A stretch of 64,000 nt of DNA from Paracidovorax avenae (GTDB lineage: Bacteria; Pseudomonadota; Gammaproteobacteria; Burkholderiales; Burkholderiaceae_C). Each line of letters starts with the position of its first letter. The first letter of the stretch is position 1. The position numbers and the translations under genes were made by a program. This document shows, piece by piece, positions 30,603-38,305 of the stretch. Location: positions 806,001 through 870,000 of the forward strand of contig NZ_CP156079.1 in NCBI RefSeq assembly GCF_040892545.1, written 5' to 3'. Below the pieces are notes generated by a model. It did no database searches. It had not been told where the DNA came from and saw nothing but the letters and a program-made list of their open reading frames with translations.

Positions 30603-32626
30603 ACCCGATCGACCGCGACCTCCATCCCGCCGCCGGCGTCCCCCTGGGCGCCGAAGCCGCGCCATGGCCCCGTCCCGCCGCCGTGGCGGAGGAGGCGCCT
30701 GCGCCAGCCGAGAGCCCGGCAGCCGACAGCCCTGTTGCAGAGGGTGCGACAGCCGAAGGCCCGGCCGGGGGAGATGCGCCCGCGCGCGCCATCGAAGCCG
30801 CCCTCACCGTCGACGCTCCGGCTGCCGTGGAGGCCGCCGGCACCCTGGAGCCGGCGGCAGAGACCGGCGCGCAGCCGGTGGCGCTGGCGGACGGAATCGA
30901 CATGACCGCGCCGCGCGTTTCCGCGGCGCAGGAGGCCGCGGAGTTCGTGGCCCGCATCTTCGCGGACGTCCAGGCCGAGGCATCCCCGGCAGCCGATCCC
31001 GCCGATGCGCGCGAGGCTCCCGTGGGCGAGGCTGCCGGCGCACAGGTCCCGGCGGATGGAGAGGAGCCCGCTGAACCCCTCGGCCGTCCCGCGGACACGC
31101 TGCGCCCGCTGGCGGGCCGCCGCATCCTCATCCTGGGCCTGGGCGCTTCGGGACTGGCCATGGCACGCTGGTGCGTACGCTGCGGTGCCGGGGACGTGAC
31201 CGTGGCCGATACCCGCGAGGCACCGCCGCAGCTGGCCGTGCTGCAATCCGAACTGCCCGGGGTGCGCTTCGTCGCGGGCGCGTTCGACGCGGCGCTGGTG
31301 CAGGGCCAAGGCCTGGATGCCGTCTACCGCTCGCCGGGCCTGGCGCCCGACACGGTGGCACCCGTGTTCGTCGCGGCCGCCGCCGAGGGCATCGCCACGG
31401 GCGGCGAACTCGGACTTTTCTCCATGGCGCTGGCTGCGCTCAAGGACTCCCATGGCTACGCGCCCGCGGTGCTGGCCGTCACCGGCACCAACGGCAAGAC
31501 CACGGTGACCTCGCTCACCGGCCTGCTCGTCGAATGCGCGGGCCGCTCCGTGGCCGTGGCCGGCAACATCGGCCCGACCCTGCTCGACACGCTGGGCCGC
31601 CACCTGGACGCCGACACCCTGCCGCAGGCCTGGGTGCTGGAACTCTCCAGCTTCCAGCTCGAAGGCGCGGCCGGCTTCGAACCCACCGCTGCGACCGTGC
31701 TCAATGTCACGCAGGACCACCTCGACTGGCACGGCGACATGCAGGCCTATGCGCGCGCCAAGGCCCGGATCTTCGGCGAATCCGGCCTCATGGTGCTCAA
31801 CCGCGAGGACGCCGCCGTGATGGGCATGCTGCCGCCGCCCGTGCGCTTGAAGCTGCAGAAGCCGCAATTGCGTGCCCATGTGACGTTCGGGGCGGACATG
31901 CCCCAGCGACCCGGGGACTTCGGCATCGAGACCGTCAACGGCATGGCCTGGCTGGTGCGCGCGCAGGAGTCCGACGAGACGGCGAAGCGCACGCGCAGCC
32001 ACGCCGAAGAAGATTTGCACATCCAGCGCCTGATGCCGGCCGACGCGCTGCGCATCCGCGGCCGCCACAACGCCGTGAACGCGCTGGCCGCGCTGGCGCT
32101 CGCGCATGCGGCCGGCTGCCCGTTCGCGCCCATGCTCTATGCCCTGCGCGAGTACCGCGGCGAGCCGCACCGCGTGGAGCCCCTGGGCCGCGTGAACGAG
32201 GTGGAGTATTTCGACGACAGCAAGGGCACCAACGTGGGCGCCACGGTGGCCGCGCTGGGCGGCCTGGGCGCCGACCGCCGCGTCGTGGTGATCCTGGGCG
32301 GCGACGGCAAGGGCCAGGACTTCTCGCCGCTGGCCATGCCGGTGTCGCGCTACGTGCGCGCCGCGGTGCTCATCGGCCGCGACGGGCCGCAGATCCGCGC
32401 CGCCCTGCGGGATGCGGGCGTGCCGCTGATCGACGCGCCCACGCTGCCGGAGGCCGTGCGCCTGGCCGCGCAGCGGGCCCATGCGGGCGATGCGGTGCTG
32501 ATGTCGCCCGCCTGCGCGAGCTTCGACATGTTCCGCAACTACGAACACCGCGCCGAGGTGTTCCGCGAGGCCGTGCAGGCGCTCGCGGACGAGGCCGGAC
32601 AGGCGCTGGAAGGGGGGCTGGCATGA
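30599..32626 (+). CDS. murD: UDP-MurNAc-L-Ala-D-Glu ligase MurD with a long N-terminal extension
   Basis: MurD adds D-glutamate to UDP-MurNAc-L-Ala. The catalytic core runs from about residue 169: [20 protein letters not shown]-binding [11 protein letters not shown] from 295, [34 protein letters not shown] and [17 protein letters not shown]. The full frame is 675 residues against about 440-450 in E. coli. The extra N-terminal ~168 residues are rich in Ala, Pro, Glu and Asp, probably disordered, with one helical patch ([17 protein letters not shown], about 109-125). ATG 30599 overlaps mraY by 4 bp as at the other junctions, which supports the long form; an internal ATG at 30902 also exists. 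Confidence 0.9.
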
Positions 32627-33906
32627 ACGCGGGCGCTGCTGCATCGTCTCCGCAGGGCCTGCGCCAGCGGATGGCCGGCTGGTTCGGCCGCGGCGCCGCG
32701 CCCGCGGCCGACGTGTTGCCCGTGCGCGTGGGCGGCACGGAGTACCGCCAGACCACGACCACCCCGGCGCGCGTGCTCGGGTTCGACCAGGCCCTGCTCT
32801 GGGTGGTGGTGGCGCTGCTGGCCTGGGGGCTGGTCATGGTCTATTCGGCCTCCATCGCCATGCCGGACAACCCGCGCTTCGGCAAGATCGCGCCCACGCA
32901 TTTCCTCATGCGCCACATCTTCGCGCTGGCAATGGGCTTCGTGGCGGCGCTGCTCGCTTTCCAGGTGCCCATGTCCGTGTGGGAGCGGGTGGCGCCCTGG
33001 CTGTTCGTGCTTTCCATCGTCCTGCTGGTGGCCGTGCTCGTGCCGCACGTGGGGACGGTGGTCAACGGCGCGCGGCGCTGGCTGTCGTTGGGCATCATGA
33101 ATTTCCAGCCCTCCGAACTCGCGAAGTTCGCGGTGCTGATCTACGCGGCCGACTACATGGTCCGCAAGATGGAAGTGAAGGAGCGCTTCTTCCGCGCCGT
33201 GCTGCCCATGGGCGTGGCGGTGGCGGTCGTGGGCGTGCTGCTGCTGGCCGAGCCCGACATGGGGGCCTTCATGGTGATCGCCATCATCGCCATGGGCATC
33301 CTGTTCCTGGGCGGCGTCAACGCCCGCATGTTCTTCCTCATCGCCGCCGTGCTGGTGCTGGCCTTCGCCATCATGGTCATGGGCAGCCCCTGGCGGCGTG
33401 AGCGGATCTTCGCCTACCTCGACCCCTTCAGCGAGGCGCACGCGCTCGGCAAGGGCTACCAGCTGTCGCACTCGCTCATCGCCATCGGCCGCGGCGAGAT
33501 CTTCGGCGTCGGCCTGGGCGGCAGCGTGGAGAAGCTGCACTGGCTGCCCGAAGCCCACACCGACTTCCTGCTCGCCGTGATCGGCGAGGAATTCGGCCTC
33601 GCCGGGGTGCTGGTCGTGATCGCGCTGTTCTTCTGGATGACGCGCCGCATCATGCACATCGGCCGCCAGGCCATCGCCCTGGACCGCGTCTTCGCGGGCC
33701 TCGTCGCGCAGGGCGTGGCGATCTGGATGGGCTTCCAGGCCTTCATCAACATGGGCGTGAACCTCGGCGCCTTGCCCACCAAGGGCCTGACCCTGCCGCT
33801 CATGAGCTTCGGCGGCTCGGCCATCCTCATGAACCTCGTCGCGATTGCGGTGGTGCTGCGCGTCGACTATGAAAACAAGCACCTCATGCGCGGAGGCCGC
33901 GTATGA
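32623..33906 (+). CDS. ftsW: Septal peptidoglycan glycosyltransferase FtsW
   Basis: FtsW is the SEDS-family polymerase of septal lipid II, paired with FtsI. The 427-residue protein has a ~50-residue cytoplasmic start and about ten membrane helices. Diagnostic stretches are [29 protein letters not shown] near 147-166, [12 protein letters not shown] (with the catalytic-type Asp in the SEDS loop), [38 protein letters not shown] and [14 protein letters not shown]. The coding end forms half of a 45-base near-perfect palindrome, and the stop overlaps a new ATG in ATGA. Confidence 0.95.
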
Positions 33907-33917
33907 GGTGCTTGTTT
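33873..33917 (+). promoter_or_regulatory. 21-bp hairpin spanning the ftsW stop codon
   Basis: Bases 33873-33887 and 33903-33917 are perfect 15-base complements. Inside them one G-T pair and CGCGG/CCGCG (33889-33893, 33897-33901) extend the stem to 21 bp with a 3-base AGG loop. The ribosome-site-like GGAGG and the ATGA are buried in it. Position 33909-33917 can pair instead with 33923-33931, so two alternative folds exist. Confidence 0.7.
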
Positions 33918-33989
33918 CGCCAAAACAAGCATTCGCCGCGTGCCAGCGCGGCGGGGCGCGCAGCGCCGATGAGCGGAGGCCGCGTATGA
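33903..33989 (+). CDS. Possible 28-residue coupled small ORF between ftsW and murG
   Basis: ATG 33903 overlaps the ftsW stop in ATGA and the frame ends in a TGA that overlaps the murG ATG in ATGA. The predicted peptide begins [13 protein letters not shown], is basic, and ends MSGGRV, echoing the FtsW end MRGGRV. GGAGG lies 9 bases before the start, inside the hairpin loop region. It may be only a coupling device that carries ribosomes across the duplicated spacer rather than a functional peptide. No homology is known to me. Confidence 0.45.
33909..33931 (+). promoter_or_regulatory. Alternative hairpin competing with the ftsW-end stem
   Basis: TGCTTGTTT at 33909-33917 pairs with AAACAAGCA at 33923-33931 around a 5-base loop. 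The left arm is also the right arm of the larger hairpin, so only one can form; a ribosome at the ftsW end would open the larger stem and favour this one. Confidence 0.5.
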
Positions 33990-35053
33990 GCCCCCCCAAA
34001 ACCGCCCTCGTGATGGCCGGCGGCACCGGCGGCCACATCTTCCCCGGCCTGGCCGTGGCCGAGGAACTGCGCGCGCGCGGCTGGAACGTGCACTGGCTGG
34101 GCACGCCCGGCAGCATGGAGTCCCGCATCGTGCCGCCGCAGGGCTTCGCCTTCGAGCCGATCGATTTCTCGGGCGTGCGCGGCAAGGGCCTGGCCACGCT
34201 GGCGCTGCTGCCGCTGCGTTTGCTGCGCGCGTTCTGGCAGGCGCTCGCGGTGGTGCGGCGCGTGCAGCCCGACGTGGTCGTGGGGCTGGGCGGCTACGTC
34301 ACCTTCCCCGGCGGCATGATGGCCGTGCTCTGCGGCAAGCCGCTCGTGGTGCACGAGCAGAATTCCGTCGCCGGCCTGGTCAACAAGGTGCTGGCCGGCG
34401 TGGCCGACCGGGTCTTCACCGCCTTCCCCGGTGCGCTGCGCAAGGGCGCGTGGGTGGGCAACCCGCTGCGCACCGCGTTCACGCGCCAGGCCGATCCGCA
34501 GGCGCGCTTCGCGGGCCGCAGCGGCCCGCTGCGCCTGCTGGTCGTGGGCGGCAGCCTGGGCGCGAAGGCGCTCAACGACATCGTGCCGCAGGCGCTGGCC
34601 CTCCTTCCCGCGGAGCGTCGCCCGGTGGTCACCCACCAGAGCGGCGCCACCCAGATCGATGCGCTGCGCGCGAACTACGCCGCCGCGGGCGTCGAGGCCA
34701 CGCTCACCCCCTTCATCGACGACACCGCCACCGCGTTCGCCGAGGCCGACCTCATCGTCTGCCGCGCGGGCGCGAGCACGGTGACCGAGATCGCCGCCGT
34801 GGGCGCGGCGGCCGTCTTCGTGCCCTTCCCGCACGCGGTGGACGACCACCAGACGGCCAACGCCCGCTTCCTCGCCGACGCCGGCGGCGGATGGCTCGTG
34901 CAGCAGCGCGACCTCTCTGCCGAAGCGTTGGCGCAATTGCTACAAAATACGGAGCGCGAAGCGCTGTTGGAGCGCGCGCTGAAAGCCAAGACGATGCAGA
35001 AGATCCACGCCACCCGCGAGGTGGTGAACGCGTGCGAGGAATTGACCGCATGA
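33986..35053 (+). CDS. murG: UDP-GlcNAc transferase MurG (lipid II synthesis)
   Basis: MurG transfers GlcNAc to lipid I on the inner membrane face. The 355-residue GT28 protein has the glycine-rich loop [17 protein letters not shown] near 8-24, [42 protein letters not shown] near 125-140, [20 protein letters not shown], and the acceptor/donor region [21 protein letters not shown] near 262-282. ATG 33986 has GGAGG 9 bases before it and lies in a duplicated copy of the ftsW end. A slightly A/T-richer patch codes for [10 protein letters not shown] near the C-terminus. It ends in the murC ATGA. Confidence 0.95.
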
Positions 35054-37481: not shown

Positions 37482-38305
37482 CCACGAACACGCTGCCCGC
37501 ACCGCTGGACGTGAAGCTCATGAACTGGACCGCGACGGTCCTGTTCGTGGGCTGCGCCGCGGCCGTGCTGGTGGCCGCCGGCTCGTGGGCGCGGCACCAC
37601 CCGATGTTCGCTATCGGGCGCATCGTGGTGCAGGGCGAGCTGGTCCACAACAACGCGGTGACGCTGCGCGCCAATGTCGGCCCGCACCTGGTGGGCAACT
37701 TCTTCACCATGGACCTGGCCGCCGTGCGCGAAGCCTTCGAGCAGGTGCCGTGGGTGCGCCGCGCGCTGGTGCGGCGCGAGTTCCCCAACGGCCTGCGCGT
37801 GGAACTGCAGGAGCACGACGCCTTCGCCTACTGGGGGCCGGAGGAGGGATCGACCCTGCTCAGCACCCGCGGCGAGGTTTTCGATGCCAGCGCCGACGAC
37901 CTGGAAGACGACGAATTGCCCCGCCTGCAGGGCCCGCAGGGCCAGTCGGAAGCGGTGATGCGCATGTACCAGCGGCTCGCCCCGGTGGTGGAGCCCCTGG
38001 GCGCGCGCCTCGCGACGCTGGAGCTGTCCACGCGTGGCAGCTGGCGGGCGTCGCTGTCGGGCGGCGCGGCGCTGGAGCTGGGCGGCGGCACGCCGGAAGA
38101 CGTCGAGGCACGCACGCGGCGCTTCGTGCGCACCGTGGCGCGCGTGGCGGCCCAGTACGGGCGCCGGCCCGACGCGCTGGAATCCGCCGACCTGCGCCAT
38201 CCCGACGGCTACGCGCTGCGGCTGCGCGGGGTGACCACCGTCGAGGGCGACGCACCGCGCGCCGTGCGGGCGGCCGTGCGCCGCATGCCTCCAAGGAATC
38301 GCTGA
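37478..38305 (+). CDS. ftsQ: Cell division protein FtsQ
   Basis: FtsQ links early and late divisome proteins and binds FtsB-FtsL. The 275-residue protein has a short cytoplasmic start, one membrane helix ([20 protein letters not shown], residues 17-36), the POTRA domain ([16 protein letters not shown] near 43-58, [20 protein letters not shown] near 88-107) and the beta domain with STRGEVFDA and [14 protein letters not shown]. Start overlaps ddl in ATGA; ftsA follows after 24 bp, the first real gap in the cluster since rsmH apart from the ftsW-murG spacer. Confidence 0.94.

Follow-up and report, generated by a model that had tools for sequence, protein, structure and literature searches.

Genes of an operon can be translationally coupled through ATGA, a stop-start overlap. 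Some integrative elements restore the end of the gene that they enter, as at tRNA genes, icd and guaA. The Rickettsia palindromic elements are palindromic and can read in frame within genes. REP and REPIN sequences with RAYT (GTAG repeats) are short hairpins dispersed next to genes and within them, according to one report (PMC3733652). Template switching is named as a source of hairpins with perfect arms in another (PMC8794818).

Here, we compare with these systems the ftsW-murG junction of Paracidovorax avenae in the window, the whole stretch of 64,000 nucleotides that was analysed. All the features described lie on the + strand. The ftsW (32623-33906; TIGR02614, 386.7 bits) and murG (33986-35053; TIGR01133, 330.5 bits) genes, identified like murC, murD and ddl with NCBIfam support, are 79 bases apart from the ftsW stop to the murG ATG, the insert measuring 83 bases. 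The ten other junctions between 24310 and 37481 all overlap, nine by 4 bases and one by TGATG, and the next one beyond 37481, at 38305, has a 24-base gap.

Repeat comparison reveals two versions of the ftsW end, an inner copy at 33886-33907 (ATGCGCGGAGGCCGCGTATGAG) and an outer copy at 33969-33990 that is the source of the murG GGAGG and ATG. They extend over 22 nt with one mismatch, and 18 bp are identical. A mini-ORF of 28 codons (33903-33989) bridges the spacer with an ATGA overlap with ftsW and another with murG.

The foldback H1 (33873-33917), a 21-bp stem with an AGG loop recognized by folding and covariation, spans the ftsW end, the ftsW stop and the mini-ORF start. Its arms (33873-33893 and 33897-33917) are 21 nt long, 95% complementary and 3 nt apart, the left one being inside the last ftsW codons. 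The inverted arm A' (GGTGCTTGTTTC, 33907-33918) is the reverse complement of upstream ftsW codons. A second direct copy A'' (CAAAACAAGCA, 33921-33931) and an alternative A':A'' stem (33909-33931; arms 33909-33917 and 33923-33931, 9 bp, 5-nt loop), mutually exclusive with H1, are read from the sequence, and the hairpins H2 (33934-33953) and H3 (GGCGCGCAGCGCC, 33955-33967) are predicted folds.

The 171 nt around the junction fold with a z of -6.09, and 0 of 200 shuffles are equally low. At these settings, the runner-up hairpins in 464 kb, namely the window and 400 kb sampled from its genome, have 16 bp. The first-pass annotation had located the 18-bp repeats, the ATGA-to-ATGA frame, the foldback and the exclusive stem just where we find them, and its views that the gap is exceptional in the cluster, that the ftsW end is doubled and that murG is displaced are likewise borne out.

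The 177 ftsW-murG loci that we read are 17 of the genus, 80 named ones and 80 from the 294 genomes of the family in which murG was matched, some named loci duplicating genus or family genomes. Among the 175 callable ones (L048 and L158 were left uncalled), murG starts directly on the ftsW stop in 136 and with another kind of overlap in 2. The remaining 37 (33 distinct) are bridged by mini-ORFs, 31 with one relay ORF and 6 with two, and none is broken. After removal of identical junctions, the layout is present in 30 of 162 and absent in 132. The relay is still intact at L122, L179 and L193 with unrelated inserts.

The relay rule is weaker beyond the family. In an order-level sample of 50 loci, made of the 30 best-scoring and 20 hand-picked across families, the 46 callable ones comprise 29 direct junctions and 8 relays, 5 that do not overlap, 3 that are out of frame and 1 that is broken, and some core-bearing inserts there (L212) have no relay. 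The spacers of L221 and L231 hold unrelated tandem inserts that also preserve the ATGA relay to murG, the one in L221 terminating in a copy of the last ftsW bases. Another repeat upstream of murG in L046, L067, L140, L166 and L181 extends the MurG N-terminus in frame with a peptide like MSAARPPEGA...PLGGSED...VPSVGA; L140 has both that repeat and the foldback element.

The layout is patchy even among close relatives. The 17 genus genomes have one unit in 6, two in 5 and none in 6, sister species differ in its presence, and tree neighbours are of opposite state (L017/L021, L020/L024, L019/L025 and L102/L106). On a quick MurG tree without bootstrap, built from 89 loci with sufficiently long protein including 18 carriers, the trait needs 13 changes, at least 8 of them forced by starred branches. 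It is somewhat clustered, because shuffled traits average 16.6 changes and only 6 of 500 shuffles need as few as 13.

On balance, the spacer is probably a core-reduced copy of a palindromic repeat, dispersed in Burkholderiales, that takes the place of gene ends and probably brings a foreign end along when it passes between species, its mobility and import being what we infer. An order-level genome (G553) has a fuller core in its ftsW-murG spacer, and the core is repeated elsewhere in that genome. At its sites, a gene end is followed by an inverted arm thereof, then by TTTCGGCGCAGGCTAAC, a pair of hairpins, GCCAAAA and finally the gene end once more. Many copies likewise run from the gene body through an inner end, the complementary arm A', TTTC, the two-hairpin core and CCAAAA to an outer end. 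In such copies the gene remains complete through its inner end, and the outer is a second version with mostly synonymous differences.

A covariance model of the core from 16 sequences (R2, replacing R1, whose structure was poor) gives 124 matches in 13 of 41 genomes from the family of G553, with 43 in the richest genome, and 81 matches in 34 of 100 genomes of the window's family including its own genome at metK (E up to 0.001 in both). Its matches extend to the ftsW-murG spacers of L238, L139, L212, L319 and L328, where the GAAAAC site is the same, and the repeat unit is found in many genera. The core matches of L331 and L339 include five about 145 bases apart (G331:C1:1737659-1738298), an array of the folE2 end and the element head to tail that resembles a small satellite.

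We examined the 75 copies with loci given, which are mostly the best-scoring and include some tandem neighbours. Scored at the 99th percentile of 438 controls, of which the highest scores were 13.6 and 78.4, 35 have the inverted arm, 35 the doubled end, 17 both and 22 neither, leaving 53 with one or both. By HMM names, the hosts with at least one feature are metK, argF, pstB, folE2, ftsZ, ruvC, thiolase, dnaJ, cytochrome c' and a SIS-domain protein, together with an acyl-CoA dehydrogenase whose HMM score is under the equivalog cut-offs. The metK copy in the window's own genome (L355) and the pstB copy have the arm only, and the groES (L353) and lepA (L366) copies have neither arm nor doubled end above the control threshold. 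Two further hosts (L288, L357), named from their tails, are presumably metK.

In ruvC and thiolase it is the gene start, not the end, that is doubled. A tRNA-Leu host (L337) was identified by ARAGORN; at L337:1375-1607 the tRNA-Leu is intact on one side of the element and its 3' part from AAAATCC is exactly repeated on the other. A copy around 1500 of L358 reads, by eye, in frame inside its host gene, which we take to be a probable RND transporter. Most of the hosts named here are conserved housekeeping genes; such a preference, if real, is what interspecies recombination would favour.

For the element, Rfam gave no match above the gathering score, so a known Rfam RNA is not supported. Nor is mobilisation by RAYT, since Y1_Tnp was not found in the four element-rich genomes G331, G494, G595 and G113 with 43, 9, 11 and 15 core matches. 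Y1_Tnp is present in 13 of the 17 genomes searched, both with and without the element, and the same search tied no transposase to it.

The window copy retains A, A', A'' and the doubled end, with only GC between TTTC and CAAAAC and with H2 and H3 positioned after A''. With E allowed up to 10, R2 finds nothing at 33873-33990, its best match in the window lying elsewhere (E 0.053), so that membership rests on the site, the layout and the intermediates. The core is present in L139 and only its GCAGGC remains in L115; the two look like intermediate steps toward the coreless form, which likely descended from a core-bearing one.

The foldback arm tracks each lineage's own ftsW end, with G-U pairs nearly absent. 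Identical rows being entered once and L196 omitted, with its arm 56 bases upstream, 85.6% of cells are paired in 20 distinct 48-base rows of H1 that include four off-register, and 94.0% in the 16 in-register rows. Nine of 22 pairs are altered on both sides in the latter, the kind of change that the first-pass annotation had proposed to look for, and covariation is 0.339 vs 0.04-0.13 for slid versions. The B stem is perfect in 20 of 30 carriers vs 6 of 132 others.

For arms in which 6 or more of 7 positions are paired, the count is 151 Watson-Crick pairs to 1 G-U; for B stems with 9 or more of 11, it is 238 to 21. More G-U would be expected in the arm under ordinary compensatory change. Its near-absence would be explained by template-switch copying of one arm from the other (PMC8794818). 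Selection on RNA could produce parts of the pattern. A' pairs better with the inner than the outer ftsW end in 24 of 26 carriers and equally in 2, 4 of the 30 being unplaced. In the dispersed copies the arm is closer to the inner end in 32 of 35 and equal in 3, a figure biased because those 35 were selected on a good inner match.

Between the inner and outer ends of 33 scorable coding copies, 90 codons differ synonymously and 28 otherwise; eight copies contribute no change, and L305, too short, and the tRNA L337 were left out. Even the stop codon differs between the two ends in ftsZ (L308, G555) and dnaJ (L336). As the differences are mainly synonymous, both ends were probably under coding selection while diverging. 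From this we infer that the simplest source of the divergence would be different species, the outer end being native and the inner having arrived with the repeat.

Two comparisons agree with such import. The outer end of L020 and the bases following it equal its element-free sister L024 over GGGTGGACGCGTATGAGCGCACCCAAAACC, and the L020 inner end differs. Over 21 bases, agreement within the genus is 20.8 for inner ends (11 carriers), 18.0 for outer ends and 17.1 for element-free ones.

The ruvC outcome is mixed, with two unclear loci taken as element-free and 3 of 16 loci unclassed. Its second codon, a mark picked post hoc, is CGN in 7 of 7 inner copies, AGA in 5 of 7 outer ones and AGA in 4 of 6 element-free ones, yet by overall identity to element-free heads the 7 divide into 3 with the outer head closer, 3 with the inner head closer and 1 tie. 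The dnaJ sister tails favour neither end as native. Selection on the used outer end could also yield parts of the pattern.

A purely local origin would have slippage double the ftsW end and template switching grow the foldback at a quasi-palindrome, the dispersed likeness being convergence. It would account for a window spacer without the core, which in a search of its own genome finds itself and otherwise weak matches only (E >=0.01), and for arms almost exclusively Watson-Crick; slippage is indeed evident from tandem units that are identical (L192) or nearly so (L196). Convergence, however, fits poorly with the GAAAAC site, arms and doubled end co-occurring with the core in L238, L139, L319 and L328 and with a unit present in many genera, and we regard the local origin as rather unlikely. 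The layout is no strain-specific accident either: murG overlaps ftsW directly in 6 of the 17 genus genomes, the case in which the first-pass annotation would have called it one, yet its presence at 30 distinct junctions rules this out.

That annotation had also proposed a ribosome-dependent switch or relay, its exclusive stems and mini-ORF setting MurG against FtsW. The relay stands, being retained in 37 of 37 bridged loci, and a stem that hides GGAGG and the start, together with the strong H1 covariation, would suit a switch. A dedicated MurG-level switch as the reason for the layout is nevertheless quite improbable given its patchiness on the MurG tree, its absence from those 6 genus genomes and its occurrence at unrelated genes, including ones that end without a coupled partner, and the arm pairs suit template copying no less than they suit selection on RNA. 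Any effect on the MurG level is probably secondary to the element. That the mini-ORF encodes a working small protein imitating the FtsW tail is very improbable. Its end does duplicate that tail, and L115 has QNRQVMRGARA vs ENRQVMRGARA with mostly synonymous changes, but the middle is read in different frames among relatives with the hairpins constant (L009/L011; L189/L142), which rules out a conserved peptide.

Under the reading of a dispersed repeat that replaces gene ends, the inner end would be imported with the repeat by homologous recombination in a conserved gene, the outer end being native. Since the ribosome site and start of murG lie in the outer ftsW end, the inserted DNA persists as the relay mini-ORF, which would hand ribosomes from FtsW to MurG through its two ATGA overlaps. 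The foldback may be produced and kept perfect by template switching, the repeat may be lost without a scar through its direct repeats, and the window form probably derives from a core-bearing one. The first copy at a new gene might arise, as a guess, from a template switch writing A'.

We further propose, quite tentatively, a new class of tiny mobile DNA. Its members would be non-coding foldbacks that insert at the ends of conserved housekeeping genes and supply a working foreign end; the arm of each would be an inverted copy of that end, and the displaced native end would provide the homology for spreading on between species. A literature search in open-licence papers found no description of such an element. 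If the reading of a dispersed repeat is right, core genes across Burkholderiales hold foldback repeats that can be removed and that exchange gene ends, an entry route for short foreign stretches into essential genes that is harmless to them. This would account for doubled gene ends and long hairpins otherwise taken for riboregulators, and would offer a natural test of template switching with arms following the host gene. It also suggests that ftsW-murG translation must apparently stay continuous in the family, because every insert in the family-level survey preserves it.

Compared with the known systems, the repeat shares with REP and REPIN the dispersed hairpin copies, its core reaching 43 matches per genome, though the window form has no second copy found in its own genome. 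It differs by the gene-specific inverted arm, the doubled gene end and the absence of Y1 transposase from the four element-rich genomes. Unlike MITEs, it has no fixed terminal inverted repeats, the arm following the host gene where found, and no short uniform target duplication, the doubled stretch being a diverged gene end.

The Rickettsia palindromic elements, compared by description, are alike in being palindromic and perhaps in reading in frame, as L358 does by eye, but the present copies frequently occupy a gene end and come with a second one. The arms resemble the template-switch hairpins of PMC8794818 in being perfect and seemingly renewed without G-U steps, and differ in that a dispersed core and a doubled gene end accompany them.

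As with the gene-end integrative elements, a working end lies on one side and a displaced end on the other, as in the tRNA-Leu copy and wherever the end is doubled (35 of the 75 copies), but the insert is only about 80 bp, has no integrase and enters many host genes. Finally, the stop-start overlaps at both mini-ORF ends are those of ATGA coupling, with the difference that here a relay mini-ORF bridges an insert.
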